Source of the DNA: Mytilus galloprovincialis
Lineage: Eukaryota; Mollusca; Bivalvia; Mytilida; Mytilidae
Assembly: GCF_965363235.1 (NCBI RefSeq)
Contig: NC_134839.1
Span: forward strand, 98,723,743-98,787,742
Reading direction: 5' to 3'
Length of the DNA stretch: 64,000 nt
In this document: in pieces, positions 4,955 to 59,833 of the stretch
How positions within the stretch are numbered: the stretch's first letter is position 1
Layout of the letters: each line of letters opens with the position of its first letter
The notes under the pieces: generated by a model
Told to the model about the DNA's origin: nothing
Databases searched by the model: none
The model's input: only the letters and a program-made list of their open reading frames with translations
Translations under genes and position numbers: made by a program

Positions 4955-5340
4955 TTATCAAAGGAACCAGGCTTATAATTTGATACGACAGACGCGCGTT
5001 TCGTTTACACAAGACCCATCAGTGACGCTCAGATCAAAATAGGTACCAAGCCAAACAATTATAAGGTCGAAGAGCATTGCGGACCCGAAATTCCAAAAAG
5101 TTATGCTTAATACGGCTAAGGTAATCTATGCCTCGGATAAGAAAATCCTTAGCATTTCGAATCCCTCATTTTTTCAAACAGTTAATTTGATAAAAATGAC
5201 CATATTATTGATATTCATGTCAACACCAGAGTGCTTACCACTGGGCTCGTGGTACTCTTGGGGACGAAACGTCCACCAGCAGTGGCATCGACTCAGTAAT
5301 GTAACTATTTATCAAAGGTTTTTAATAACAATTTGATACG
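4955..5340 (-). repeat. Hammerhead-bearing mussel repeat, near-complete unit (decayed ribozyme)
   Basis: The unit is bounded by a direct repeat ('tatcaaaggaacc' near 4957 and 'tatcaaaggttt' near 5312). Its minus strand at 4985-5028 holds a decayed hammerhead core: CUGAUGG replaces CUGAUGA, stem II has one mismatch, and GAAA and CGCGCGUC are kept. A second structured block at 5240-5300 has GGACGAAACGTCC flanked by potential long-range pairing. The same sequence as 5030-5160 recurs on the plus strand at 10200-10320. Confidence 0.65.
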
Positions 5341-7742
5341 CTTAGATCAAATAATGTTAAATCATGTGTTTAATTTCTCTTTCTTTACACTACTAGTATT
5401 ATTTGGTTACACCAAATGCCATACGCTTCACTTAAAGAATTCAATACTATTATTTGAATATTTAATCATTACAGTTATTGCATCTGCAAGTATTTGATAG
5501 ATTATATTTTAAAATGTTTATCAAATAAATTGTATTAATGCATGCAGTATGGGATGTACAAACCATTACAGACTCATTCGATAATAAACCAATATAGTAT
5601 CTGTCTATTTACTTTTTTGTTCATTTAATGTAATGTGTACAAAAAAAGGCACCGGTCATTTTTTTATATGCGTATTTCAATTCAAAATCATTGGAAAGTA
5701 TTATAAAGAGGACAATTTCTACTAAATACTAATTGGTCAAGTTATCAAAATCGTTCTGTTGAATCTTTTTTGGGTGAAATTCGGGTGCATTTTTTTTTAT
5801 CTATAGTCTGAAGTCTTTTATATCCATCAAATTATGGCCTTTAGACGCCAGACAAACAACCGTCAACTCGTATATTAATAAGTCTGTCACTTTTATACAT
5901 TTTAAAGGGAGTGGGTTATTGAAAATTAATTGAGAAACCCTTAAAAAAATTATCTTAAGTACTACTTAGTAAGCTACCGTTTGATTAACACAATCTTGGA
6001 TAGTTCATCTAGAGTTATAGGACTTCTAACGTGAAAAGCAGTAACATCAATATATAAAGAGTATTGGGACAGGACAATAAACCACATCAACATCTTCATA
6101 AATAAAGGTACAAACAAACAACAATAATAAATATGTGGTCAAGATAGCAATTTTTGGTAGAGACGAACAATCGTTCTCTTTTACCTGTCTAGACCATATG
6201 TCGGATAGTAAAAAACAAAATGAAATAACACCACTGCCCAACAATTATTCAGGATGACCACTAGCATGGCGGACAATGATAATAGTTTTAGGACACAGCT
6301 ACATCAACATAAAAATGTAATGTACATTATTGTGGAAGGCCTGTGATTTACATACAGCTGATTTCGACAAGTTGTTTTGTATCCACTGATACGATGTCCA
6401 GTATAAAATACGACATACTACGTGGACAGCAGTGTGAAAGTGTGCTTGCATTTCAGAATACAGTCAGGATAGCCCAGCTGACGGTTGAATACTGTAACCA
6501 GTTTAATTGCATAAATTAGTTAGTATATTTCGCATGTATTATTTCTTGTTGAAAGATGCAAGAACCTTTCCTAGTTTTAATATGTTATTTCGTTTTCAAT
6601 GTTGAAGTTCTTTTTACGACATTATTCCTGACTAGATGTGTGAGTTACATAATCTGTTTATGAGACGCATTATGATACTGATAATAACTGTCTGTCGTCG
6701 TATCTGTTACCCGCCCAAAGCGTCTGGTAGTAGAACTGTACACACGGTTGGATTCGGGGCTGAAGAAAAAAAAAGCTGTTTTCAAAAATGTTAAATTTAT
6801 GGTGATCAGGGCAAAATTAAAATTGTTTGCGGAATTTCAGTTCATGTTTATTTTCACGTAATGTTTATTAACCAATGCATGGTTTTCTGCCAGGATCCAT
6901 CCAGACCGGGTCAGTGTTTTTGTTTTGCTGTCATACATGTTTTTGTTAGAAAATTGATAACATAGTACTGAAACTATAGCCCAGTATGGACCAACTTCGT
7001 TTGTCAAAAAGTGTTTGCTGATCTGTTGCCCTCTATATAGATATCAGTCATGTTGAAAACATCATATGATATGATTAATTTTATCAAGTATGCTTTCCAA
7101 ACTCATTTTCTTATAGAAAAACAAAAGATATGGGATATCCATCCATGACACAAATTCAGTACATGCACAGCAACAAATTCAGGAAAGCAAAACAAAAGCG
7201 CATTTATTGCTGTTCTTCATCTCAAAGTCAAAGTGAGGGCCTATAAACACGGAGTAATTTAGCTCTCACCTCACTACCAGTTTAAGACGTCCACTAATAT
7301 TGGTTTGAGCAGAATATTTCACAGACTTTGCAAGATATATCGACACCTAATAAGGCCCGGACAAAGAAGAACATACTAAAGAAGTACATATTTAAGACAA
7401 AATTGATCCTACGCAAAGGTGTAAATATAAAACTATGTAGAACATATTCTAGGTTACTAGAAACACATTGTTGGTGGTATTTATATTAGTACGGATATAA
7501 AATATGTTTAAATTCCAAGCTGTAAGTACAGGAAAATACCTTCATTTTTGTCGTCCTTACATTATTTACTTAATAAATAGTATAAAATATTTTCAAAATA
7601 AAACAAAAGTTAAATCAAAGCTATTTTAATGTTTTATAATGCTAAAATGCAAAATAACAAATGTTACCAAGAAGGACCAAATGAATCCATTTCGGAATAT
7701 GGCATGCAGCGTACCAAACTAGTACATTTTTTACATGATTTA

Positions 7743-10195: not shown

Positions 10196-10400
10196 TAAGG
10201 ATTTTCTTACCCCAGGAGTAGATTACCTTAGCCGTATTTGGCACAACTTTTTGGAATTTTGGGTCCTCAATGCTCTTCAACTTTGTAGTTGTTTGACTTT
10301 TTAACTATTTTGATCTGAGCGTCACTGATGAGTCTTATGTAGACGAAACGCGCGTCTGGCGTATAAAATTATAATCCTGGTACTTTTGATAACTATCATG
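10196..10400 (+). repeat. Hammerhead-bearing mussel repeat, intact ribozyme core
   Basis: This is a partial unit homologous to the complement of 4955-5160 and of 52355-52500. Its 3' end holds the hammerhead annotated at 10319-10362. Such ribozymes process RNAs of retrozymes and Penelope-like elements in animals; this unit has no ORF and is presumably non-autonomous. Confidence 0.7.
10319..10362 (+). ncRNA. Type I hammerhead ribozyme motif
   Basis: All core elements are in order: stem I 5' strand GCGTCA (10319-10324), CTGATGA (10325-10331), stem II GTCT/AGAC with loop TATGT (10332-10344), GAAA (10345-10348), a minimal stem III C-GCGC-G (10349-10354), then TC, so GUC is the cleavage triplet and cleavage falls after 10356. 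The stem I 3' strand TGGCGT (10357-10362) pairs with GCGTCA over 6 bp, two of them wobbles. The tiny stem III is typical of metazoan retroelement hammerheads. Confidence 0.75.
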
Positions 10401-30224: not shown

Positions 30225-30960
30225 AGACAAGTTGACAGTCCATCCTATAAGAGACCAAATGAACAGAAATAAACAACTATAGGTCACTTCGTACGGCCTT
30301 CAAAAATGAGCAAATCCCATACCGCGTAGTTAGCTATTAAAGGCACCGAAATGACAAATGTAAAGCAATTCAAAATTGGAAAACAAACGGCCTAACTTAT
30401 GTACAAAATAATGAGCGAAAACAAATATGTAACATAAACACAAACAACATCCACTGTATTCCATTACAGGCTACTGACTTAGGACAGACACATATATACA
30501 GAATGTGGCGGTGTAAAACATGTTAGTGGGAGTCAAACCCTTCCCTAATCCTGGGACAGTTGTGCATCAGAACACAAAACAACCAACGCATATTATAAGC
30601 AGCAACAAACAACAACCTCTCAATTGCAGGCTCCTTACTTGGAACCTGCACATTTAGAATGTGGCGGGGTTCAACATGTTAGTGGGCGCCCAACCCTCCT
30701 ACCAACCTGAACAGTGGTGAAACAGTATAACATAAGAACGAACTATAAAAAAAATCCGTTGAAAAAGGCTTAACTCATTGGATGGATATAAATAGAACTA
30801 CATCTAACAAAAACACAGAGTGGACGTGGCCGGGTATTAGTACATCCCAACAACCAAAGTCACCAAGAACAGATCTGAGAGTACTTGCAGTTATTTACAG
30901 CTAGTTAAAATTAAATAACAACTAATAAAAAAGTTCATGCATCTATGACTAAATCATCAA
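30225..30960 (+). repeat. Rpt-E dispersed repeat with two diverged internal sub-copies
   Basis: Landmarks are 'gtacggccttcaaaaatgag', 'caaatcccataccg', 'aggctactgacttaggacag', 'aatgtggcgg', then 'gtggacgtggccgggtatta' and 'agatctgaga'. The 'caggct..gactt' to 'tgttagtggg' part occurs twice (30465-30535 and 30625-30690), an early form of the amplification seen at 40165-41285. The complement lies at 36835-37345. Confidence 0.7.
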
Positions 30961-32280
30961 TCAGTTTACATCAAACATCCAATGGATTTAGTTTAAAGAC
31001 GTCATGAAAAGTATTCAGTTTGCGTTCAATTTACTGAAAACAAAATCAATATAAATACCAATTATTAAAACAATATTCAAAGAACGAATTACAGTTTTCA
31101 ACAGATAATCTGTAGAATAATTTTATTTTTAAGGATCGATAAGTTTACCATGATCGTTTTTCAAAATTTCCCGGAGCGGTCAACAACATGTCCGTAAATA
31201 TGAGAATGTGCTTTCCCGTTTGAAATAACTTTTCTACAGGTACAACCAAACTACGAAACCAAATATTTACATCTATATGAAAGAATTTAGTGAAGGCTAA
31301 AAGTGATTTGTGGTAACGAAATCCTGACTTAACAATTTACCATTAATACATAGGTTACGTAGACGTCACAACAGTCGCTTCCATTAGCTAAATGTTCCCT
31401 CCCACTTTCAGCGTATACGTGATGATACCTCATAACACTATTCCGCACGGACACTTGACAGCTCTTTTTTCCCCTAACCATTACAATAAAAGTTGACTGA
31501 CATATCCTACTTTTATGCACTTATACTTTTTTTTCTCTTTCAAAACAACTGCGTTTTTATCTTATTTAGAACAGCACATAGTGTATTACCAAATTTACTT
31601 AGGCAACCGATTCATTGTTTTCTTTTTTGGAAGGAGGTAAGCAATTTTTATTTTTTTTTATGTCATTTTATGAATCTTAAAATTTATCAAGCATAATTCT
31701 CTTGAAGAACTGAAAGAAGACTTATACACAATACAGACTAGATTATATTGGATGATGTTTTATTCTATATTAATGAACATTTGATGTTAATTTCTGAGTA
31801 ATCAAGTTCATAAAATGCCGAGACATTAGTTGGATATTATTAATGCTGGCAATAAATGATAACATATAAAAGTTAACGACTGGTGATTTGTGTAATTTGT
31901 TAACCATTATGAATATGTTCTTCAGTAAGTTATTTACTCGTTAAAAGTTGACTGTTTCTCCCTGACATTCCGATTTCTTTCATTGTGTGTGTAAATGATA
32001 TACAGAATAGCAAGTGTCGTGAATATCCATCAAACATAAGATACTGTCTATACCTGAATTGCACCCTCTTAAACACATTAAACGTATAACTTTTTGTCCC
32101 CTGCGAACGCACCCCTCCGTCTGTGTGTCCATTCGTCAGGTCTTGTTGGCGCTCTAACATGTACAGTTCTTACCAGAATTTTTTAAATACATCAGCTTTA
32201 TATCAACAATGTTTGGATGAGTTCCAAAATCAGTGCCTATAGATTATTTTAAACCAGATACTAGTATGCCCCTTACATAG
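30960..32280. other. Intergenic DNA between SCP gene 3 and Rpt-D
   Basis: AT-rich, with several short ORFs lacking coding features. No gene or RNA was recognised. Confidence 0.45.
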
Positions 32281-32284
32281 ATTT

Positions 32285-33090
32285 ATTATACGAAAGAGGG
32301 ACGAAAGATACCAGAGGGACAGTCAAACTCATAAATCGAAAATAAACTGACAACGCCATGGTTAAAAATGAAAAGGACAAACAGACAAACAACAGTACAC
32401 ATGACACAACATAGAAAACTAAAGAATAAACAACACGAACCCCACCAAAACAAGGGGTGATCTCAGGTGTTCCGGAAGGGTAAATAGACCCTGCTCCTCA
32501 TGTGGCACCCATCGTGTTGGTTATGATATAACAAATCTGGTAAATAGTCTAATTCGGTAGGTCACATTTATGAAAGGGAAGGGGATTGTAGTTTCGACGT
32601 TAGGAACATATCCGATATGTACCGATTATCAGGTTGTCTGCATGTTGATATCGTAAAATATCAGCTGCGAGACATAATATGAAGCTTTTTGTCGAGTAAG
32701 CGCAGCGAACAAGATCAAAAAGCCTTCATATTATGTCGAGCAGCTGATATTTTACAATATTAATATGCAGATAATCTGATAATCGATTTATCGGGCTGTA
32801 TTTGCGTCTTTTGAAAGTATTGTCTTAGTTTCACCAGCAACCGGAAGTTGACTTGATAAGTTCGGGTCAAACTTATCAACGTCGGTTCAAACATTATGAC
32901 GTCGCTGATATGTCCGGGTCAAAGTTATTAAGGCCAGGTCAACGTATTTGACGTCACAAAGCCGTGATATGGAGTTTTATTAAGAGCTGAGCAGATTGAT
33001 ATAGACAATTGGACGACCGATAACATTTGTGAAACAGTTATTCCATAACGGTCAACCAACTCGTGATGGCGTCTGTCAAATTTACGAAGA
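32285..33090. repeat. Rpt-D, inverted copy split by an insertion
   Basis: 32290-32616 is the complement of 26690-27015 and 33017-33090 continues into the complement of 26630-26690, so about 0.4 kb was inserted between. Confidence 0.75.
32617..33016. mobile_element. Foldback insertion inside Rpt-D
   Basis: About 400 bp present here but absent from Rpt-D at 26590-27020. CCGATA occurs at both junctions (about 32612 and 33016), consistent with a 6-bp target duplication. It contains a 68-bp inverted repeat: arm 1 is 32624-32691, the loop about 24 nt, arm 2 32716-32784. Most arm differences are G-to-A type that would still pair as G-U in RNA. There is no ORF and the family is unknown. Confidence 0.7.
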
Positions 33091-33575: not shown

Positions 33576-34121
33576 ATGGAGTTTTTAAAATACAAATGGT
33601 CTATTTGGTTCACAATTCTAGACGTCAACCAAGACAGTTTCATAACGCATGCAGATGTGGAACAAATGATCAAAAACTTCCCAATAGTAGAAGGTCTTTC
33701 AGAAGAGGATGCCAAATTAGCCTGTGATAATATCGAAAAATGGTGGACTTTTTATATATTGAAAGGCAGGGAAATTCTTACAGAAGAAGAACTAATCAAA
33801 GATTTTGAATATGAATACACATTGAACAAAAATGCTTTCATTGACAAAATGAAAAATTGTCAAGAAGAAGTTCTAAAAATTCTAGATACCGACAAAACTA
33901 ATTCAATATCGGTAGATAATTATGTGAAAGGGTTCAAGGCATTAGGTCATGATAATGAAGAACTTCTCCGAAAATCCTTCAAACTTTATAAATCGGCTAA
34001 CCACTCTATTCCAATCAAAGAATTTATCAACGTTTGGCTTTTCTTTCTGACTAATGATGACCCGACAAAGCCAGACACAGTGATGGACACCATTGAAGCT
34101 GGACTAATGGAATGTATGTGA
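33576..34121 (+). CDS. Sarcoplasmic calcium-binding protein-like, gene 4 (coding exon)
   Basis: A 181-aa EF-hand protein of the SCP family. Site 1 (residues 16-27, DVNQDSFITHAD) has Ser in place of the usual loop glycine; site 3 (104-115, DTDKTNSISVDN) has the family pattern without glycine and with Asn at 12; site 4 (YKSANHSIPIKE) is degenerate. Ca2+ affinity may be lower than in genes 1-3. The exon begins after CATTTTAG at 33566; ATG 33576 is the first ATG in it. The C-terminus ends with two extra residues after the conserved 'EAGLMEC'-type tail. AATAAA occurs at about 34243. It lies in the same orientation as gene 3, about 4 kb downstream. Upstream exons were not found. Confidence 0.85.
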   Translation: MEFLKYKWSIWFTILDVNQDSFITHADVEQMIKNFPIVEGLSEEDAKLACDNIEKWWTFYILKGREILTEEELIKDFEYEYTLNKNAFIDKMKNCQEEVLKILDTDKTNSISVDNYVKGFKALGHDNEELLRKSFKLYKSANHSIPIKEFINVWLFFLTNDDPTKPDTVMDTIEAGLMECM

Positions 34122-34375: not shown

Positions 34376-36830
34376 TCTTGAATTTAAATGGTTGTTAGCA
34401 TTTTTATTTTTTGAATTTTTTTAATGATTCAAGGTGAAAAGAAGCAATTACGGCGTTTGTGAACACGGTTATAGAGAGGTTTAACATATGAAAGGACATT
34501 TAAGACAAATATCATTATACATGTGTACAACATTGAAAACCAAAGAATGAACAACAAGAAAGAAACCTCAGGGGCTCCAGAAGGGTTAACATATCCTGCG
34601 CCACACCAGGAATTATAATCTGAGCAGGAATGCAATCAATGAATAAAAATAAATAGCAAAATTTCCTTAATGCTTCCATTAAAAACTAATTGTTGAGAAG
34701 TAAGAGTAAATTTTGATTGCATAATATTTATAACATTATGTATTTAGATTGATCATTATACATGATTAATGATAAATATGTTATTTTGCAATATCAGATT
34801 TGAACCTTCATATTGTTGTATTACTCTTGCTAAGCAAAACGATATTTTGAAGAGGTAAGAAGAATATACACCGACCTAGAATCAGATACAACTTGTGCAG
34901 TCTTTATCTGTGAACAGCTTTATTAGCTCATAAATATACATAACCACTTAGAACAGTCATGCATATATATATTACATTATAAGACAATTATTAAAATGTA
35001 CCAAGCAAAAAAAAAATATTAGATCATATTGTAAAAAAGACTAATAAAAGTAAGGAGATGTGGTATAATATATATGATTGCCAACTATCCACATTAATGT
35101 AATACAGCCACACAAGCACAAACTTGTAATTTAAAGGAAAAAAACACTCTACTTGTATTTTATCTTCCCTTTTTAAGTTGACAATCCTATGGAATAAGTT
35201 TTTGGAAGCGTCATGCATTCTGTGTGGCACTATAAACGATCTTATATAAATAGTTTTCAAGACTAACATTGGTACCTATATTTGATAAACTTATATCATT
35301 ATAAGCTGTGCCTTAAATATCGAAGACTTATTCCTTACTGTTTGATGTTTCTTTGCATTCCAACATAGCAAAAAAACCCAAACTGAATGGTTTTCCTCTA
35401 TGACTAGTTATTTACTGTCATGCCCATAGCGTCAAATGATTTTTTTTCATTATCTAAATCTTTCACAGAATATCATAAATTGATCTAGACGTTAAACAAA
35501 TTTTATAACATATATGGACATTATTGTGGAAATTCACATGGAACACTCCATTTATAGAAAAATATACCAAGGGACATTCAAAACTCATTAGTTGAGAGAT
35601 GCTGACAACGCCATGGCTTAAAACGAAGGACGACGAAATGGCAAACAAGTTAACAAAATTATACAAAATATAGACATAAGAAGATATGGTATACAATGAG
35701 TAACACAACCCCCACCAAAAACCGTGAGTGGTCTCAGGTGTTAAGGAAGACCTGATTTAATTTGTTTTACTTGAAGTCATGTTGCGCCTTTTTATAAGTT
35801 TACTATATGGTTTTCTCATTGTTGAAGTCCGTTCGGGGAACTAAAGCTGTTTGCAACCTTCTCAATTTGATTTCTGATAGTTGTCTCATTGGTAAGCCTA
35901 TCATATATCTCTACACCCTCTACATATTTTTTACTTGACATGAATCTACAATTTGCGTTAAAAAGTTAAACTATAATTGACAAATTCGGGACAAAAGCGT
36001 AATATTAACTTACACTGAAGTCAATATTTCTGTTTACTGCTTAACATTTTCATTTATTTTATTAATGTACACTTTTTGTCCATGAGCTTTATCCAAAATG
36101 CATAGAAAAAAATGCACATGTTCTCGAGTTTTTAAAAGAAAGAAAACATATTTGTATCTTGTAAAAAAAATGTTGATCATCTTCGTAGGCATTGGTCAAG
36201 ATTTGTCGCTCGTTGACTGGTGTAATAAGCTGCTTTGAGTAAAAAAAAAAAATTAACGAAGTAAAGCCAATACTTTTAAATGTCGTATTACTTTTGGGAG
36301 TGGTTTTTGAAGATTTTTTCTCTAAACTCACAAGACATACAAGATGAACATAATTTGTGTACATAAATAGTCATTAAAATGACATACCAGTTAAGAGGAA
36401 GGAAAATGCTTTTGTAAATGGTAATTTATAAATTTCATTTGTAGATAGTAAAGAGTTTTATTAGCAAGGCTGGTACGACTGCGAAATAAGGGACACGCGT
36501 TGATATTAATTTCTCATCTGAGGGATCACTTACAAAAACTTTTCATAACGCTAGTTAGTAATATGAATCTCATCCGATCCGGTGATTTTATATTACTTTA
36601 AGTTTTTATTTTGCTGAACTAATATTACTAGTATGTTATATACATATACATATTCATGGATCTACAATCTGTCGATACCTGTAACTTGGCATTGCACAAG
36701 GTCATGTTTTTCTCTGGCTGTTTATGACGTCTTTACACTAAATCCATTGGATGTTGGATGTGTATGGATTGATAGTTTAGTCTTAGATGCATGCTTTTTT
36801 TCATTAGTTGTTAGTGGATTTGAACTAGCT
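34375..36830. other. Intergenic DNA with repeat fragments
   Basis: A diverged Rpt-D piece lies at 35565-35745 ('ctgacaacgccatggcttaa', 'ggtctcaggtgtta') and short Rpt-E pieces near 35050-35100. No gene was recognised. Confidence 0.45.
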
Positions 36831-36834
36831 GTCA

Positions 36835-37345
36835 GATAACTGTGAGTACTCTCAGATCTGTTCATTGTGTCTTTTTGTGTCGGAATGTATTAGTACCCGG
36901 CCACGTCGACTTGTATGTTTGTCCATCTGATGAGTTAAGCCTTTTTAACTGATTTTTTAAGTTCGTTCTTATGTTGTACTGTTATACCACTGTCCCAGGT
37001 TAGGGGGAGGGTTGGGATCCCGCTAACATGTTTAACCCCGCCACATTATTTATGTATGTGCCTGTCCCAAGTCAGGAGCCTGTAATTCAGTGGTTGTCGT
37101 TTGTTTATGTGTTACATATTTGTGTTTCGTTCATTTTTTTTACATATAAATAAGGCCTTTAGTTTTCTCGTTTGAATTGTTTTACATTGTCTTATCGGGG
37201 CATTTTATAGCTAACTATGCGGTATGGGTTTTGCTCATTGTTGAAGGCCGTACAGTGACCTATAGTTGTTAATGTCTGTTTCATTTTGGTCTTTTGTGGA
37301 TAGTTGTCTCATTGGCAATCATACCACTTCTTCTTTTTTATAGGT
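36835..37345 (-). repeat. Rpt-E, inverted copy
   Basis: Complement of 30225-30960: 'ctcagatctgttcattgtgt', 'attagtacccggccacgtcg', 'cccaagtcaggagcctgtaa', 'gttgaaggccgtacagtgac', ending 'tgtctcattggcaatcatac'. Confidence 0.75.
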
Positions 37346-39955: not shown

Positions 39956-41580
39956 TACATATAAGAATAAAGAGATGGGGTATGATTGTCAACCAGACAG
40001 ATATCCACTAGTATTCAAATGAAGTTGATGTTGGCAATTATAGGCAACCGTACTGTCTTCAACAATGAGCAAATCCCATACTGTACGACCTGAAATTTGA
40101 AAAAAATGAGAAAAAATGAGAAAACTAATGGCCTAATTTATAACAAAATTATGAAATCAAATATGACAGGCACGAACCAACGACAATCCCTGAACTACAG
40201 GCTGCTGACATGGAACAGGACCAATGACAATCCCTGAACTACAAGCTGCTGACATGGAACAGGACCAACGACAATCCCTGAACTACAGGCTGCTGACATG
40301 GAACAGGACCAACGACAATCCCTGAACTACAGGCTGCTGACATGGAACAGGACCAACGACAATCCCTGAACTACAGGCTGCTGACATGGAACAGGACCAA
40401 CGACAATCCCTGAACTACAGGCTGCTGACATGGAACAGGACCAACGACAATCCCTGAACTACAGGCTGCTGACATGGAACAGAACCAACGACAATCCCTC
40501 AACTACAGACTGCTGACATGGAACAGGACCAACGACAATCCCTGAACTACAGGCTGCTGACATGGAACAGGACCAACGACAATCCCTGAACTACAGGCTG
40601 CTGACATGAACCAACGACAATCCCTGAACTACAGGCTGCTGACATGGAACAGGCACGAACCAACGACAATCCCTGAACTACAGGCTGCTGACATGGAACA
40701 GGACCAACGACAATCCCTGAACTACAGGCTGCTGACATGGAACAGGCACGAACCAACGACAATCCCTGAACTACAGGCTGCTGACATGGAACAGGACCAA
40801 CGACAATCCCTGAACTACAGGCTGCTGACATGGAACAGGACCAACGACAATCCCTGAACTACAGGCTGCTGACATGGAACAGAACCAACGACAATCCCTG
40901 AACTACAGGCTGCTGACATGGAACAGGACCAACGACAATCCCTGAACTACAGGCTGCTGACATGGAACAGGACCAACGACAATCCCTGAACTACAGGCTG
41001 CTGACATGGAACAGGACCAACGACAATCCCTGAACTACAGGCTGCTGACATGAACCAACGACAATCACTGAACTACAGGCTGCTGACATGGAACAGGCAC
41101 GAACCAACGACAATCCCTGAACTACAGGCTGCTGACATGGAACAGGACCAACGACAATCCCTGAACTACAGGCTGCTGACATGGAACAGGCACGAACCAA
41201 CGACAATCCCTGAACTACAGGCTGCTGACATGGAACAGGACCAACGACAATCCCTGAACTACAGGCTGCTGATATGGAACAAGAACATAAAGAATATGGC
41301 GGGGTTAAACATGATTGTGAGCGCTGAACTCTCTCCTAACCTGGAAAAGTGGTGTTACAGCACAACATTAAAGCAAATTATAAAAATCAGTTGAAAAGGG
41401 CTTAATACATTAAATAAGAAAAAAAATATTATAAAAACAGACCACACCATACGTGGCAAGGTATTTATACATCCCGTAAAAAAAAACCCTCACAAAATAT
41501 AGATCTGAGATGTACTCGCTATTACTATCAGTGAGTTCAAAGCCTATAAAAAACCATGTATCTAAAACTAAAATGCCATT
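39955..41580 (+). repeat. Rpt-E copy expanded by an internal satellite
   Basis: The left part (39955-40165: 'gatatccactagtattcaaa', 'caatgagcaaatcccatact') and right part (41285-41580: 'aatatggcggggttaaacat', 'agatctgaga') match the two ends of Rpt-E at 30225-30960. The middle has become the tandem array at 40165-41285. Confidence 0.7.
40165..41285 (+). repeat. 44-bp tandem satellite (about 25 units) with higher-order structure
   Basis: The basic unit is 44 bp, e.g. GCTGCTGACATGGAACAGGA followed by the CCAACGACAATCCCTGAACT type, seen from phase starts at 40201, 40245 and 40289. Two variants occur: longer units with 'ggcacgaacc' and shorter ones with 'gacatgaacc'. A block of variants near 40594-40790 recurs near 41038-41232, about 444 bp later, so about ten units were duplicated together. 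Because 44 is not a multiple of 3, ORFs through the array (up to 114 aa) cycle through three frames and are artefacts. Confidence 0.9.
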
Positions 41581-50617: not shown

Positions 50618-51735
50618 ATGGAAAAATATTAGACTAAACTCGTTCAAAGTGTATCTACACGTCTCAAACTTCAAAATGGCTTATCTAAAAATACTACCAT
50701 CGCTAACATTTTTAACAATAAAAATCGTGGTTACCCTTCAATCGATGAGTTTCATGCGAAAAAATTACTTACATGTCCCCGTCTTTCCACCAACAATATG
50801 GTAAGGTCCACGTTTAATGGTCGCACATTTTCTTTAAATTTTGAAACTGATATTACTTGAAAAACAAACAGTATTATTTATTTACTCACATGAAACAAAT
50901 AGGATGCGGTATTCAGTACGTAGGTGAAACTGGACGATATTTATCTAAACGCACGCAAGAACACTTGTATCGTTTTAAAAGACCCAATAAATTCAAAAGT
51001 ATCATTTTCCAACATCTTAAGAAGCACAATCATCCTATTAAATATTTAACAGTTCAACCTTTAGAAGTAGTAAATAAGGAGCCTGGTGAATATCATTCAA
51101 AGTTTGTACGATCACGGAAAATAATTGAATTAAATTGGATTAAAAAATTGCAGACAGTCTAGCCTCTCGGTCTAAATGATAATATCATGGGAATTGGTAA
51201 TATATCAAGAACCGATTCTGTTAACATTTTGGATATAGTTTCTCATGGACGTAGAAAAAATCGCAATCAAAGAAAATTTCGGACCAACCGTACAAATATT
51301 TCGGACCCAATTTCTATTTCAAAAACAACGGCAGACATTATCTGTTATCCAAGCTCTGTTCTTTACCTATAAATAAATTAAATCAAATTTTAGAGGATTG
51401 CAACACAAATTCATATTACAGTCCTAAGTATGAAATCGTTCAAATTATAATGGCATATTGTTATTCTAAACTGTTTCCCAAAATTGATCGACCTGAAGAT
51501 CTTAAAAAACATTTTATTAAAATAAAGTATGTCAATAAAGGTTTTGATTTTGTAAATATTGCCGGTTTTTTTAACGACCATTCTGTTAAAGACCAAATTC
51601 CTGGATATTTTGATAGTACTGATCATGAACTCCATCTTATTTGTTATATTTACAATAAATCTACCCGGAAATATGTGTTTAAATATAGCCATTTGTATTA
51701 AGATATAAATATCATTGAAAATACACCTATGTCAT
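50618..51735 (+). pseudogene. Naiad N1: GIY-YIG endonuclease-like region with in-frame TGA at conserved Cys
   Basis: A DNA-cleaving domain used for insertion. It shows 'YPSIDEFHAKKLLTCPRL', then 'FETDIT' followed by TGA (50858-50860), 'KTNSIIYLLT' followed by TGA (50891-50893), and 'GCGIQYVGETGRYLSKRTQE', where QYVGET is the YIG-equivalent motif and R..R..E the following conserved block; 'HLKKHNHPIKYL' supplies the His pair of the CCHH finger. PLE endonucleases normally have Cys at both TGA positions. Other lesions are a TAG at 50630, a 1-nt deletion near 50900 (relative to N2) and a TAG at about 51160. Downstream is a basic 'RRKNRNQRKF' linker and 'MAYCYSKLFPKIDRP'. The copy is dead, but the TGAs are shared with N2 and the other lesions are not. 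Confidence 0.7.
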
Positions 51736-51744
51736 GTCAATTGG

Positions 51745-52347
51745 ACACGCTTTAATATTATATATGCGCTTGAATATTTACTTGATAACATCTTTGTTCG
51801 CTTTGGAAATTCCGTATATCGTCAAGTTATTGGAATTCCAATGGGGACTAACTGTGTACCACTTATTGCGGACCTGTTTTTGTATTGTTATGAGTTACAA
51901 TATATGATTAAATTAGCAAAGACCCATCGAAACAACATTTGATACAACAAATTTAACAATACTTTTAGATATTTAGATGATATATTGGCTCTCAATAATG
52001 ACGACTTCAGTATGTATACTAAAGAAATTTATCCTGTTGAACTTACTTTAAATAAAGCTAATACTAACAATGACCACTGCCCTTTCCTCGATCTAGATGT
52101 CTATATCATTAACGGGAAGCTTAATACAAAAAAAAAATATGATAAAAAGAGATGATTTTTCATTTCCTATCGTTAATTATCCATTTTTAGATGGTGACGT
52201 TCCCTTGTCAGCATCTTATGGTGTTTATATATCTCAACCTGTACGATTCGCTCGTTTATGTAACAACGTATTAGATTTTAGCGAGAGAAATTTATGTATT
52301 ACTGAAAAATTATTACACCAGGGTTTTCGATATCACAAACTAGTCAA
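51745..52347 (+). pseudogene. Naiad N1: reverse transcriptase palm fragment
   Basis: Contains 'YRQVIGIPMGTNCVPLIADL' (motif B, PMG), 'NNTFRYLDDILALN' (YLDD at 51970-51981), 'NNDHCPFLDLDVYI' and 'ITEKLLHQGFRYHKLV'. The fingers and motif A are absent because of the deletion at about 51735. Frameshifts occur after 'NTKKKYDK'. The missing C-terminus lies at 53682-53951. Confidence 0.75.
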
Positions 52348-53681
52348 TAGTTAACAAAGGTACCAGGATTATAATTTAGTACGCCAGACGCGCGTTTCGT
52401 CTACATAAGACTCATCAGTGACGCTCATATCAAAATATTTATAAAGCCAAACAAGTACATAGAGGATCCAAAATTCCCAAAAGTTGTACGTTTGAAGTGA
52501 GACCGGTGAAACAAACCGGACATAGCTTTATAATATAGTTAATTGCTGCCTTAGTTTGCTATTAATAAATATTGAAATGTGCATTGTTATTAAGTGCAAT
52601 ATCAGTAATTAGTTCAAATGTAATCTTGGGTCAGTCCTAGTTCTATCTTTTTCATTCAAATGACGTCATTTTTCATTTTTTGATGATCTGTTTTACAAAT
52701 TCAAATGACGTCATCATCATTTTTTTGTCATTTTTTACAATTTCAAATATTACGTCACTTGGCGTTGAGGTTTTAACATATTCGGATGTGTCTAGATATT
52801 GTGTTGCAAATGTCTGGTTATGTAATGTATTTCAGTTGTTTCCTGTAATTAGTTAATATTTCAGTTCTATCATGTACAGCTTTTGTTTATTAATTTTATA
52901 AATTTACTGTTTGCAAAAGTATAAATTATTCTAAATGATAAGGATGTTCTGGTAACAAACAGAAAACCCTGGCCGTTTTTGGCACAGCTTTTTTGATCTT
53001 TTGGTCCTCGATGCTGTTCGACTTTGTGCTTGTTTCGGCTTTCAAACTTTTGTATCTGGGCATCACTAGTAGATCTTGTGTGGATAAAATGCACTTCTGG
53101 CGTATTAAAATTTTCAACTTGTTGCCTTTTGTTGGCTGTTGTTCGTGTGTTTCTTTGTCAATTGTATTCTCCAATTTATTTATATTGTAGTCCTGTTGTG
53201 TTGAGTTGTCATCTTAATGTTATATTTCACATGCCTATAAAAGGGGAGGTTTGGCATGCCACAAAACCAGGTTCAACCCGCCATTTTTTTTCTTTAAAAA
53301 TGTCCTGTACCAAGTCAGGAATAGGGCCATTGTTATATTATAGTTCGTTTCTGTATGTGTTACATTTTAACGTTGCGTCGTTTGTTTTCTCTTATTTTTG
53401 AGTGTAAATTCACATTGCGATAAGACGTGTCACGGTACTTGTCTATCCCAAATTCATGTATTTGGTTTTGATGTTATATTTGTTATTCTCGTGGGATTTT
53501 GTCTGTTGCTTGGTCCGTTTCTGTGTGTGTTACATTGTAGTGTTGTGTCGTTGTTCTCCTCTTATATTTAATGCGTTTCCCTCAGTTTTAGTTTGTTACC
53601 CCGATTTTGTTTTTTGTCCATGGATTTATGAGTTTGAACAGTGGTATACTACTGTTACCTTTATTTTGTACCAAATACGGA
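52348..53681. mobile_element. Composite insertion in Naiad N1 with inverted hammerhead repeats
   Basis: N2 runs continuously where N1 has this 1.33-kb block (N2 near 59130). It starts with a minus-strand hammerhead repeat (52355-52500), continues with AT-rich DNA containing three 'aaatgacgtca'-like words (52660-52755), and ends with plus-strand Rpt-B (52925-53670) whose first part is the inverted partner of 52355-52500. An ORF crossing its right end (53607-53951) is a chimera of repeat and Naiad tail. Confidence 0.65.
52381..52424 (-). ncRNA. Type I hammerhead ribozyme motif
   Basis: The complement is identical to 10319-10362 in every core element: CTGATGA, stem II GTCT/AGAC with loop TATGT, GAAA, CGCGCGTC and stem I GCGTCA/TGGCGT. 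Predicted cleavage lies after the C complementary to 52387. The inverted partner at about 53060-53103 is decayed. Confidence 0.75.
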
Positions 53682-53951
53682 CTAATTTTTTTACATCGGT
53701 ATAAGGACATCATTCGTAAATATAGCTTAACATGCAGATTTCTTATACGTTCAGGTATTTCACATCCAATATTTTATGGAAATATTCTTTACAAAGCACA
53801 AAAATGTCAGTATTCACCTCAAAGGCTTACAAAACTTTTAAACAGACTTATTAAGAAGGGATATAGTTACGATACTGTTGTCAGGTCATTGAAGATTGCA
53901 TGTTTTGGCTTTAATATTGATTCACTTATAGGGTCTATGCATCGGAACTAA
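53682..53951 (+). pseudogene. Naiad N1: C-terminal RT extension
   Basis: 'YKDIIRKYSLTCRFLIRSGI', 'NILYKAQKCQYSPQRLTKLL' and 'YDTVVRSLKIACFGFNIDSL', ending in TAA. Nearly identical to N2 59155-59407, with few differences over 250 nt, which shows that the two copies are closely related. Confidence 0.75.
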
Positions 53952-54119
53952 ACACATTTATTTAAAAAAAAAAACAGTTGGCGGCATGACACTGGTTATG
54001 TTCTTCTCATATATTTTATTATAGTATGATACTAAACCCCTAACGGGAGGGATTGCGCCTGATATTCATATGCTGAAGACATAATCTTTCAATCAGTTTA
54101 ATTGAGGTCTGGGGCTGGT

Positions 54120-55223
54120 GTCAGAATTAGAGTTTCGGTGTATTTACTTGGAATTGGTCTTATACCTTGACGACTTGTGATGTCTGGAGCCAAGGCCTGA
54201 AACAATATTCAATGTGAAATAACTTGCACAGGTTTGTCTGTACTCAGAGTAAATTTTGAGGTGAAAATACGGCCATTTTAGGCATAGGGTCCACTTAAGG
54301 TGAATTGTTATTTCTTGTCAGTGCGACAAAACAGGTGAATGTTATAAATAACTATAAAAACAGATAAAATAAGTATACCAATTTTCCGATCAGAAACAAA
54401 GACTTTTCTTTATAAAAAAAACATAATTTATAACTATTTACAATTATAGCATAAAGAAAATATCTGATGAAAAATGAAAACTCTTATTAAATAAAATAAC
54501 TATGAAAATGCTTAACATGAAGATTTTACCAACAGTAAAATAAGTTCTATTTCTCTTCAAAAAGAATAATGCATTAGCAAATTAATAACTTTATCATAAG
54601 TTACTTTTAGGTAATAAAAATCTTTAAACAGAATGCTTTGTTGACTGCTGTACCCCTATTTTTGACATTTTTACCTATTGTGTCTGTTTTTGTTCACGCA
54701 TCGGTGACAATATAAGGGAATTTGATGCGACTGTCATACAAGTGAGAGGTTTAGCTACTTACAAAACCAGGTTCAATCCACCATTTTCTACATAAGAAAA
54801 TGCCTGTACCAAGTCAGGAATATGACAGTTGTTATCCATTCGTTTATGTGTTTAAACGTTTGATTTTTCCATTTGATTGGGGACTTAAAATGCTTTCCTT
54901 TTTGAATTTTCCTTGGAGTTCAGTATTTTTGTGCTTTACCTTTTAAATTATATTTAACAAAATTAAATTAACTTTGCTTACCTGAAACAATATTCAATAA
55001 AACTTGAAATAGTTTTATGTCTTTATTTCCAAAACGCGCATGTAAAAGTGACGCTTTTTGGAGTTTGCGTGAAAACCAAACTAAAGCTATTAAAATTTCT
55101 GTCTAATATTGCAATAAAATATTGAACTAAAAATAATTTGCTAAAAACTTGGAATTTTTCTAATTTTTACTGAAATTAAGAATTTCACAAAAATAATAAA
55201 ATCTGATCAAAATGATACCATGA
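54120..55223. other. Insertion within the Naiad N1 3' UTR, holding an inverted Rpt-A copy
   Basis: The 3' UTR breaks after 'gaggtctggggctgg' and resumes at 'ctggcatgtcagttaactgc' (55223), whereas N2 is continuous (59560-59600). Inside, 54650-54950 is an inverted Rpt-A. No gene was seen. Confidence 0.6.
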
Positions 55224-55499
55224 CACTGGCATGTCAGTTAACTGCTAGTAGTCTGTTGTTACTTATCTATTATTGTCATTTTAATTATTTTCTTTTGTTA
55301 CATCTTCTGACATCGGACTCGGACTTCTCTTAAACTGATTTTTTTTTGTGCGTATTGTTATGCGTTTACTTTTCTACATTGGCTAGATGTATAGGGGAGG
55401 GTTGAAAGGTTGAGATCTCATAAACATGTTTAACCCCGCCGCATGTGACTTACATGTCCCGTCTTTCCACCAACAATACGGTAAGGTCCACATTTAATG

Positions 55500-56332
55500 G
55501 TCCCACATTTTCTTAAAAAATTTGAAACTGATATAACTTGAAAAACAAACAGTATTATTTATTTACTCACATGAAACAAACCGGGATGCGGTATTCAGTA
55601 CGTAGGTGAAACTGGACGGTATTTATCTAAACGCACTCAAGAACATCTGTATCGTTTTAAAAGACCCAATAAATTCAAAAGTATCATTTATCAACACCTT
55701 AAGAAGCACAATCATCCTATTAAATATTTAGCAGTTCAACCTTTGGAAGTAGTAAATAAGCAGTCTGGTGAATCTCATTCAAAGTTTGTACGATCACGGA
55801 AAATAATTGAATTGAATTGGATTAAAAAATTACAGACAGTCTACCCTCTCGGTCTTAATGATAATTTCATGGGAATTGGCAATATATCAAGAACCGATTC
55901 TGTTTACATTTTGGATATTGTTTCTAAAACTGTTCGAAAAAAAAAACGCTCTCATGGTCGTAGAAAAAATCGAAATCAAAGAAAATTTCGGACAAATCAT
56001 ACCAATATTTCGGACCTAAATTCTATTTCAAAAAACAACGGCAGACATTATCTGTTAACAAAGCTCTGTTCATTACCGATTAATACGTTAAATAAAACTT
56101 TAGAGGATTGCAACACAATTTCATATAGCAGTCCTAAGTATGAAATCGTTCAAATTATAATGGCATATTGTTATTCTAAACTGTTTCCTAAAATTGATCG
56201 TCCTGGAGATCATAAAAAACATTTTATTAAAATAAAGTATGTCAATAAAGGTTTTGATTTTGTTAATATTGCTGGTATTTTTAACGACCATTCTGTTAAA
56301 GAACAAATTCCTGGATATTTTGATAATACTGA
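55500..56332 (+). pseudogene. Naiad N2: GIY-YIG endonuclease-like region, open apart from two TGA codons
   Basis: TGA at 55539-55541 and 55572-55574, exactly 33 nt apart as in N1, stand at the two conserved Cys positions upstream of 'GCGIQYVGETGRYLSKRTQE'. Between and after them the frame is open to about 56332, roughly 790 nt with no other stop. It encodes 'HLKKHNHPIKYLAVQPLEVV', 'SKFVRSRKIIELNWIKKLQ', a basic 'KTVRKKKRSHGRRKNRNQRK' linker and 'MAYCYSKLFPKIDRPG'. Upstream of 55530 two small indels break the frame. If UGA is read as selenocysteine, this domain is nearly intact. Confidence 0.7.
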
Positions 56333-57455
56333 GCTTCCTCTCAGTCGGAAACCCGGTTGAAATAGAACAAAAGAATCGAAGCTTTTTGTTAGAGAAGGCG
56401 ATAAATGCTTACTGTAATGTTTACTATAGTGACAATAATTTTAAAAGTTAATAGTAACAAACAAAATTACAATTTTCTTCTCAATTACGAAGTGTTTTAT
56501 TTTAAAAACACCATTTGCATAAGTTTTCAATTTATTTAGTACATAGTTAAGCAGAACAATTAGATATCAAGTCGACGACATGGGTATCTTTCAAGTTGGA
56601 TGTAGAAAATGCATAACCTCCGATTTTTTTTAAAAGTTACCTCGGACGGAAAACATATCCATCTATTAGTTCAGTAATTTTCGTGTCTGCCCTTCCATTA
56701 TGTGACTCAAGAAAAAATTCAAAAAAAAAAGGGTAACAATTGTATCGAAAAGAGAAAATCGAGTGCACCTTTTCATTTTAGGGCGTGTTTGAGTTGATTA
56801 TTTTGTCTTGATATCGTACAAAGCAAGAATATTTCATACATCGTCTCGCTTCAGATTCTATCATTTTTATATATCAAAGCTACAGGTTGACTTTATATCA
56901 TAAAAAAAAATCACAGTGCTAAAAGATGAAATATATGGGTTAAGTGAAATACCTATCTAATGAATCACAAAAACAGAGTAGGTGTGTTCGAATAGCTATT
57001 TTTTTTTTACTGAAAGTACTTGACGACAGTCTTTCAAGTTGGATGATGAAAATGCATATCTTCGAAAAATTATAATTTTTTGTGTGTGAAAACTAGGGTT
57101 TATAGTCTTCAACCACTAAAAAAATCAAGTCTGCCCTTCCACGAAATATTTAATTAGAATTTTTTTAAATGTTTATGAATTTTCGAAAATTCCACCTGAC
57201 AACCGATCAGACAATAGTTTTAAGTTGAATCAATGCAGACAAGATCATAAACTGATGCTCATTAGCTAGTTGATACATTTGCCTTTTAAAAAACAACTGA
57301 CATATAAGGATCGTAATGGTGCAATGTGGATAAATTTATCGGTTTCCGAGAGCAAAATTGGCAGCGCGTCATCCCTACAATGGCTTCCATTTCTACGATT
57401 GTGAAAATGAACTGGCGTAACGGGGAGATAACTTTGACGAAGTAGGATCCTGACT
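56333..57455. other. Insertion in Naiad N2 with a diverged internal direct repeat
   Basis: N1 is continuous here (about 51620). A block 'tctttcaagttggatg..aaaatgcata' occurs twice (56588 and 57030), each followed about 100 nt later by 'gtctgcccttcca' (56682 and 57128), so the insert contains two diverged copies of about 440 bp. No coding capacity was seen. Confidence 0.5.
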
Positions 57456-59407
57456 GCTCTTATTTGTTATATTTACAAGAAATCTACCCGGAAATTTGTG
57501 TTTAATTATAGCCAATTGTGTTAAGATGTTAATATCAGTGAAAATACACCTACTTCATGTAATTGCAGTAATTCCGAATACATTTATGGACCCATTTCCC
57601 ATGTTATAACAGGAGATCTTAACATCGTTCAAGACCGAGAGTTGAAATCATTCCTCAGTAAAGGACCTAAATATCGTCCCTCTTCAACTATTAATTGGAA
57701 TGAGTGTCGTGATATCATCCACGACTCACTCCGTACTTACTGTTTGAAATGGATAAAACGGAAAAAAGCTGACAAAAAAATCTTTGGACTCTTTTTTTTA
57801 ATTCAGTAATAAACATTGTTGATATACGTATTCAACATTTTAAAGAACATTTTACTCTTAACAATAACCACAATAAACCTATTTCTCGTATCAAACATAA
57901 ACTAAAAGAAATAGCCAAGGAATTTGTTTTTGTCCCGGCCGATAAAGCTGCTAATATTATTATTATTGTTTGACGTAAATTTTACATTGAGGTTCTACAA
58001 AAAGAAATCACCAATTCACCAACATTCCAACTGACTCCATTTTCAGAAAACGACATCTGTAACAAACATAAACTTTTAGCTACCGCTTTACAAGCAGAAC
58101 CAAAAACAATGATAGTCCCAACTATGTATTGGCTGCCGAAACTACACAAAACACCTTACAAATACAGATTTATTTCGTCTTCAAGCCATTGTTCCACTAC
58201 TAAATTATATATTCTTCTTACCAGTACACTTGGTACAATCTAAAACCTGATAATAAATTGTTCAAATAAGGCCCTTGAAATAGTGGAATTAATTACTTTT
58301 GGAGTGTCAAAAACTCGTTGGAAGTACTTGATAAATTGCATGCTTATATTGGTGATTTTGAATCTGTTCAAAGTTTTGATTTTTCTACCCTATATACCAC
58401 ATTGCCTCACATTTTCATTAAGAAAAATTCACACACCTAATTAAATGGGCATTTAAAAAGTCAGAATGTGAATATATATGTTCAAACTCTTTTAGGTCAT
58501 TTTTTAGTAGCAGTAAACAAAAAAACTATGTCAATTGGACATGCTTTGATACTATATCTGCCCTTGAATTTTTATAACATAACATTTTTGTTCGCTTTGG
58601 AGATTCCGTATATCGTCAGGTTATCGGAATTCCAATGGGGACTAACTGTGCACCACTTATTGCGGACCTGTTTTTGTATTGCTATGAGTTACAATTAATG
58701 ACAAAAATCAGCAAAGACCCATCGAAACAACATCTGATACACAAATTTAATAATACTTTTAGATATTTGGATGATATTTTAGCTCTCAATAATGACGACT
58801 TCAGTATGTATACTAAAGAAATTTATCCTGTTGAACTTACTTTAAATAAAGCTAATACTAACAATGACCACTGCCCTTTCCTCGTTCTTGATATATATAT
58901 ATATATATCATTAACGGAAAGCTTAATGCTAAAATTTATGATAAAAGAGATGATTTTTCATTTCCTATCGTTAATTATCCATTTTGAGATGGTGACGTTC
59001 CCTTGTTTATATATCTCAACTTGTACGATTAGCTCGTGTATGTAACAATGTTTTAGATTTTAACGAGAGAAATTTATGTATTACTGAAAAAATTATTACA
59101 CCAGGGTTTTCGATATCACAAACTAGTCAAAACATTTACTAAATTTTATCATCGGTATAAGGACATCATTCGTAAATATAGCTTAACATGCAGATTTCTT
59201 ATACGTTCAGGTATTTCACATCCAATATTTTATGGAAATATTCTTTATAAAGCACAAAAATGTCAGTATTCACCTCAGAAGCTAACAAAACCTTTAAATA
59301 GACTTATTAAGAAGGGATATAGTTACGATACTGTTGTCAGGTCATTAAAGATTGCATATTTTGGCGTTAATATTGATTCACTTATAGGGTCTTTGCATCG
59401 GAACTAA
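57456..59407 (+). pseudogene. Naiad N2: CxC linker and reverse transcriptase
   Basis: An RNA-dependent DNA polymerase of the Penelope/telomerase RT group. Seen in order: 'TSCNCSNSEYIY' (CxC motif, about 57547-57582), 'ITGDLNIVQDRELKSFLSKG', 'FVFVPADKAAN', then 'IIIIV' with TGA at 57971-57973 and 'RKFYIEVL', 'PTMYWLPKLHKTPYKYRFIS', motif A 'VQSFDFSTLYTTLPH' (about 58367-58410), motif B 'GIPMGTNCAPLIADL', motif C 'FRYLDDILAL' (YLDD at 58764-58775), and the C-terminus ending at TAA 59405. Frameshifts occur near 57790, 58280, 58430 and 58890, plus a TAA at about 58241, so it is inactive. The TGA at 57971 is where a Cys or Trp codon would be expected. Confidence 0.75.
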
Positions 59408-59833
59408 ACACATTTATTATTAATAAACCAGTTGTTGGCATGACACCGTTTATGTTCTTCTCATATATGTTATGATGGTATGATACTAAACCCCTCACGG
59501 GGAGGATTGTGCGTGATATTCATATGATGAAGACATAATTTTTCAATCAGTTTAATTGAGGTTCGGAGCTGGCATGTCAGTTAACTGCTAGTAGTCTGAT
59601 GTTATTTATGTATTATTGTCATTTTGTTTATTTTCTTTGGTTACATTTTCTGACATCAGACTGGGACTTTTCTTGAACTGAATTTTAATGTGCGTATTGT
59701 TATGCGTTTACTTTTCTGCATTGGCTAGAGGTATAGGGGGAGGGTTGATATCTCACAAACATGTTTAACCCCGCCGCATTTTTGCGCCTGTCCCAAGTCA
59801 GGAGCCTCTGGCCTTTGTTAGTCTTGTATTATT
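59408..59833 (+). other. Naiad N2 3' UTR
   Basis: Shared with N1. It is the place to look for a SECIS element if UGA is decoded. By eye the best AUGA-anchored hairpin (about 59525-59575) lacks a convincing helix and unpaired AA, so none is called. A CCCC/GGGG hairpin lies near 59487-59505. Confidence 0.55.

Follow-up and report, generated by a model that had tools for sequence, protein, structure and literature searches.

In-frame TGA codons and SECIS-like elements in two dead Naiad-type retrotransposon copies of Mytilus galloprovincialis point to a selenoprotein ancestor

The stretch analysed here (the window) comprises 64,000 nucleotides of the mussel Mytilus galloprovincialis (NC_134839.1, positions 98,723,743 to 98,787,742 of the forward strand) and contains two copies, N1 and N2, of a Naiad-type Penelope-like retrotransposon. 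These very probably descend from an element whose single protein contained several selenocysteines (Sec). As is characteristic of eukaryotic selenoproteins, TGA codons stand in frame with homology on both sides, and homologues carry cysteine (Cys, C) at the TGA positions. Since both copies are dead, what is said of selenocysteine concerns their ancestor. Its single protein would have consisted of a GIY-YIG endonuclease (EN), a CxC linker and a telomerase-like reverse transcriptase (RT), encoded by an mRNA with in-frame UGA at conserved Cys positions, namely at site S5, where the RT begins, and, in the EN region, at sites S2 and S3 and probably, upstream of these, at S1. These UGAs would have been read as Sec, directed by a selenocysteine insertion sequence (SECIS) in the 3' untranslated region (UTR) together with the host's own Sec machinery, and the Sec residues may have taken over a zinc-binding or structural role of Cys.

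Anatomy of the two copies and their in-frame stop codons

The features of both copies, all on the plus strand, are the following:

50633..54124, plus strand: Naiad copy N1 (EN, linker and RT remnants, 3' UTR), from blastn against N2 and tblastn with relatives
50765..50767, plus strand: TTA at site S1 in N1 (tryptophan (Trp, W) or C in relatives)
50858..50860, plus strand: TGA at candidate Sec site S2 in N1
50891..50893, plus strand: TGA at candidate Sec site S3 in N1
51699..51701, plus strand: TAA at a Lys codon in N1, common to N2
55226..55444, plus strand: copy of the N2 3' tail (59569-59779, two matching pieces) directly before N2, from blastn
55446..59580, plus strand: Naiad copy N2, 5'-truncated, EN-linker-RT-3' UTR, from blastn and tblastn
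55446..55448, plus strand: site S1 of N2, TGA; weak, as it lies where the copy is truncated
55539..55541, plus strand: TGA at candidate Sec site S2 in N2
55572..55574, plus strand: TGA at candidate Sec site S3 in N2
55575..56342, plus strand: open frame of N2 over the GIY-YIG endonuclease and the region after it
57522..57524, plus strand: TAA at a Lys codon in N2, common to N1
57558..57566, plus strand: CxC linker motif of N2 (TGT AAT TGC = CNC), its first Cys being site S4
57971..57973, plus strand: TGA at candidate Sec site S5, at the RT start of N2, on a Cys/Trp column
59405..59407, plus strand: TAA stop of the N2 open reading frame (ORF)

N1 and N2 are collinear in blastn, sharing three long blocks that are 88-91% identical and a shorter one (109 bases, 90%). 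Frameshifts and additional stops interrupt both, and both are dead copies. Near 51737, N1 lacks about 0.96 kb of its linker and RT, and it carries a 1.3 kb insertion at about 52348-53680, while N2 is interrupted by about 1.1 kb at about 56343-57452. The domains of N2 nevertheless follow one another on the same strand, with the endonuclease at 55440-56342, the linker from about 57453 and the RT, with motifs such as YLDD, to about 59130, after which the C-terminal part runs to the TAA stop. The 3' tail repeated ahead of N2 gives an arrangement resembling a pseudo long terminal repeat, seen in one copy only. At 40264-41240, units of about 44 bp form an array that resembles a section of the 3' tail of the Naiads (around cctgtcccaagtcagg). 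Rfam Hammerhead_1 matches (cut-off 34 bits) were found at 52381-52424 (minus strand, 33 bits), 10319-10362 (plus strand, 33 bits) and 4985-5028 (minus strand, 23.4 bits); the repeat that holds them also interrupts N1, where the match lies inside the insertion and on the strand opposite to N1.

The permuted order, with the endonuclease before the RT, defines the Naiad family, and this is the order found in N2, with the CxC motif between the two domains. Pfam assigned neither the EN part of N2 nor its close relative P0001 to a family, and in the relatives P0066 and P0078 a GIY-YIG match above the cut-off precedes RVT_1 (22.6 and 22 bits, cut-off 29.6). An AlphaFold model of another relative, P0084 (979 aa, mean pLDDT, the predicted local distance difference test score, 82.3), had telomerases at ranks 1-14 of its PDB matches, so that the predicted kinship of the RT with telomerase was established on this relative and not on the broken copies.

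A sequence-only reading of the window had reported TGA at 50858 and 50891 in N1 and at 55539 and 55572 in N2, each pair 33 nt apart, and this was borne out. It had also placed both pairs upstream of the motif GCGIQYVGET. In N2 the TGAs are in frame with this motif; in N1 a one-base indel destroys the frame just past the second TGA. The long open frame it had noticed after the second TGA of N2 measures 783 nt (55575-56357), the last few codons lying within the insertion. Its further statement that no other lesions are shared had to be corrected for the in-frame TAA at 51699 and 57522, and stands for the remaining aligned stops. These are, in N1, S2, S3, TAG 51160, TAA 51699 and TGA 51940, and in N2, S2, S3, S5, TAA 57522, TAA 58241, TAA 58575 and TGA 58985, after five N2 stops at frameshift edges (57770, 58267, 58276, 59030 and 59054) and one in a minus-strand remnant had been dropped by judgement. 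The stops common to both copies are S2, S3 and the Lys-codon TAA, so their common source probably carried one nonsense codon already.

A degenerate pattern made up of both TGAs and the intervening codons matched at these two places only in the window (100 shuffles gave a mean of 0.00 and a largest count of 0), and a DNA pattern covering both TGAs had 0 matches in viral contigs. With the frameshift-edge TGAs 57770 and 58276 of N2 removed first, five distinct columns have an aligned in-frame TGA in either copy, three of which fall on the five columns where relatives alternate between Cys and Trp (S1 to S5, see below), an outcome with a chance of about 6e-7 under uniform placement.

Cysteine and tryptophan at the TGA positions in relatives

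Three protein searches returned 42 relatives, 3 (one of them new) and 120 listed of 792. Out of 163 collected proteins we dropped one host chimera, P0038, and aligned the other 162 to a ruler sequence, most of them not spanning all sites; gaps were set aside in all counts. P0038 is a Mytilus edulis sulfotransferase 1A1-like protein in which one stretch matches 21% of the Naiad query at 81% identity; this piece of the element seems to be either exonised in the host gene or misannotated.

Both S2 and S3 are covered by 40 of the 162 aligned relatives, and each shows six W, 34 C and no third residue, which upholds the claim that the paired TGAs occupy Cys positions. S1 has six W and 31 C and S5 has ten W and 106 C, with nothing else at either, and S4, the first Cys of the CxC motif, has four W, 105 C and one F. 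Inspection by eye shows two misalignments within these counts, a W at S1 (P0026) and a C at S2 (P0058). Conserved Cys columns outside the five sites, such as the third EN Cys (43/43), the second CxC Cys (108/111) and an RT Cys (120/120), are free of W, and beyond S1-S5 no column that is mainly Cys has two or more W, one near the C-terminus having a single W beside 87 C. Two columns are mixed (four W, 15 C and 49 Q; one W, 40 C and 50 I). The relative P0001, which matches N2 at 91% identity across 86% of the query, has W exactly at the TGA positions of N1 and N2. Gene calling with code 4 prints TGA as Trp, and the Trp of these relatives would accordingly stand for TGA.

The places where the predicted proteins end tell a similar story. 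Among the 41 proteins of the first search (P0038 dropped), 20 end immediately before S4 and seven immediately before S5, and no other end point is shared by more than two. Together with the Trp printed at such sites, these ends make S4 and S5 look like positions read as stop by one gene caller and as Trp by another, as Sec codons are, which suggests that standard gene calls cut Sec-Naiad proteins to pieces.

A second mark separates the two types. Between S3 and the next Cys there are four residues in six of six Trp types and two in all 34 Cys types, counts that come from related sequences and are not independent. As the difference has no exception, the exchange of Cys for Sec appears to coincide with a longer loop ahead of the GIY motif. 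In a quick tree of the region before the RT (108 rows, the N2 ruler included), which we take as a hint only, a row was scored as bearing a Sec sign if it had W at one of the sites, if its protein ended before S4 or S5, or if it was the ruler from the window itself. All 33 rows with such a sign (one being the ruler) fall in one set of 38 (support 84), with six label changes. The five rows of this set without a Sec sign are three fragments with no usable site (P0024, P0035 and P0036), P0017, with Cys at S4, and P0057, with Cys at S4 and S5.

Searches of contigs added little. The EN protein as query found no relative in viral contigs or genome contigs, and the RT alignment found none in viral contigs and three loci in genome contigs, two of them in a metagenome-assembled genome (MAG) labelled as a Bathymodiolus symbiont, the third in a MAG of Thioglobus, all probably host DNA in the bins. 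The one of the three that covers S5 has Cys there; it lies at 5872-6420 of a contig (L001) of the Bathymodiolus symbiont MAG and encodes a Cys-type Naiad RT. Rfam gave no SECIS in these three loci up to E 5.

SECIS-like elements and a second Naiad family

Any selenoprotein gene of a eukaryote should have a SECIS in its 3' UTR, and SECIS-like stretches were found in four places:

30249..31371, minus strand: second Naiad family, C-terminal ORF remnant (31371-31161) and then 3' UTR
36716..37300, plus strand: 3' tail of the second family, starting at the SECIS-like element 36716-36782 (SECIS_1 28 bits, gathering score 35; fold z -2.64)
54000..54081, plus strand: decayed SECIS homologue of N1, in which the ATGA core reads ATTA
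59462..59526, plus strand: SECIS-like element of N2 (Rfam SECIS_1 23.9 bits, gathering score 35; fold z -2.75)

The element of N2 begins 54 nt past the stop codon of the ORF, in the 3' UTR. Its SECIS_1 match has an E-value of 0.83 for 16 kb and 4227 families, or about 2e-4 per family by our own division. Over positions 1-48000, Rfam up to E 10 gave one further SECIS_1 match, at 36716-36782. No Naiad ORF was found ahead of this solitary tail, which is 77.5% identical to the minus-strand copy at 31011-30604. Since that minus-strand copy of the repeat (31011-30249), which includes a decayed SECIS-like stretch at 30938-31023, follows a Naiad C-terminal remnant, a second and diverged Naiad family appears to share the arrangement of an ORF followed by a SECIS-like element. 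In an alignment of the four homologous stretches, CTAAA and TGAT are kept in all and ATGA in three of four; a covariance model built from them picked up no further good match, either in the window or in the three MAG loci. The copies carry UGA and SECIS-like elements together, so the Sec trait would seem to travel with the element.

Some Sec-Naiad copies consist of the 3' tail alone, and the solitary tail at 36716-37300 keeps the SECIS core motifs. That functional SECIS elements are spread across the host genome by Sec-Naiads is nonetheless an idea we consider improbable; if true, Naiad tails in host 3' UTRs could allow UGA codons already present to be decoded as Sec, and could create new host selenoproteins or selenium-dependent readthrough.

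Two features stand apart from the Naiad copies. An intact ORF at 33576-34121 encodes what by eye is an EF-hand-like protein, probably a host exon, and a hairpin at 32648-32760, perhaps an inverted-repeat transposon, scores 42.5 bits as MIR1120 on the minus strand (cut-off 86) and about 24 bits as mir-216 on both strands.

Alternative explanations and comparison with known systems

Several observations weigh against a Sec-containing ancestor. The equation of Trp with TGA comes from printed proteins and not from the DNA of the Trp-type relatives, and P0044-P0046, 67-71% identical over the scored region, have Cys at S5. N1 has TTA at S1, and both copies have TGT, hence Cys, at S4, whereas so many of the first-search relatives end just before it. 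The shared TAA (51699/57522) is either a nonsense codon already present in the common source or one of two separate origins. Both SECIS_1 matches lie under the Rfam gathering score, the stretches of N1 (z -0.60) and of the minus-strand copy (z -0.68) fold no better than shuffles, and RNAalifold on the four stretches keeps three pairs only, with no covariation support. A regular expression for the SECIS core plus helix was rejected as evidence, with 2 places (3 matches) in the window against a mean of 1.35 in 20 random sequences. Finally, the first search admits only proteins of 0.55-1.75 times the query length and so favours fragments, which leaves the two shared end points, S4 and S5, unexplained.

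Three other explanations were weighed. There is a slim chance that the TGAs were regulated stops, giving mostly an early-ended product and, by rare readthrough other than as Sec, the full enzyme. UGA is known to be leaky and some retroelements use readthrough, but with several TGAs at Cys positions along the ORF plain readthrough would yield almost no RT, and it requires neither a SECIS nor an exchange with Cys.

Slimmer still is the case for ordinary decay, in which a single dead ancestor had its Cys codons (TGT or TGC) mutated to TGA and passed them on to both copies. Indeed, the copies are about 90% identical and have one other nonsense codon (TAA) in common, so their shared TGAs alone are not independent evidence. 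Against decay, the TGAs lie on just those columns that alternate between Cys and Trp in relatives, the Trp types including P0037 and P0016, which are 47-55% identical to the query; the aligned TGAs off these columns (51940 and 58985) are not common to both copies, and there are SECIS-like elements. Moreover, the differences between N1 and N2 are biased to third positions (10/13/28 by codon position over 242/243/241 sites, p 0.004), so that part of the divergence probably arose under coding constraint, in lineages that already had the TGAs.

An ancestral tryptophan, with TGG turned into TGA in N1 and N2, agrees with the six proteins that print W at S2 and S3 and is just as improbable as decay. 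At these two sites Cys stands in 34 relatives (with one misalignment, at S2) and a third residue in none; TGG would not account for the 27 of 41 proteins whose ends fall directly before S4 or S5; and TGG would have to become TGA at S2, S3 and S5 alike.

The descent of these copies from a Sec-using Naiad, which the sequence-only reading had proposed, is thus supported by the Cys/Trp columns, the ends of the gene calls and the SECIS-like elements. Canonical Penelope and Poseidon elements likewise combine a GIY-YIG endonuclease with a telomerase-like RT, but their endonuclease is C-terminal and they carry hammerhead motifs; here the endonuclease is N-terminal, and the hammerhead match of N1 lies within an insertion and on the opposite strand. 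Cys-type Naiad-like proteins (e.g., P0084, P0078 and P0111) share the domain order and the Cys columns with the mussel copies, and differ in having Cys at the sites and two, not four, residues from S3 to the next Cys.

The closest counterparts are the Naiad elements of spiders and clams, which Craig, Yushenova, Rodriguez and Arkhipova (Mol Biol Evol, 2021) reportedly described as encoding selenoproteins; the two lineages are said to have gained Sec independently. A literature search by titles and abstract starts returned no paper about Sec-encoding Penelope-like elements. The Sec-Naiads of spiders and clams are reported to resemble the ancestor proposed here in the N-terminal GIY-YIG domain before the RT, the CxC linker and the several selenocysteines, while N1 and N2 are dead copies in Mytilus. 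Few retroelements seem to need selenium for their own enzyme, and in those that do, the spread of the selfish element would depend on how much selenium the host can supply. The set of sites, the SECIS-like elements in two families and the mark of four versus two residues can be tested on any bivalve genome. Sec-encoding Naiads thus being known already, the mussel copies are a well-supported further case.

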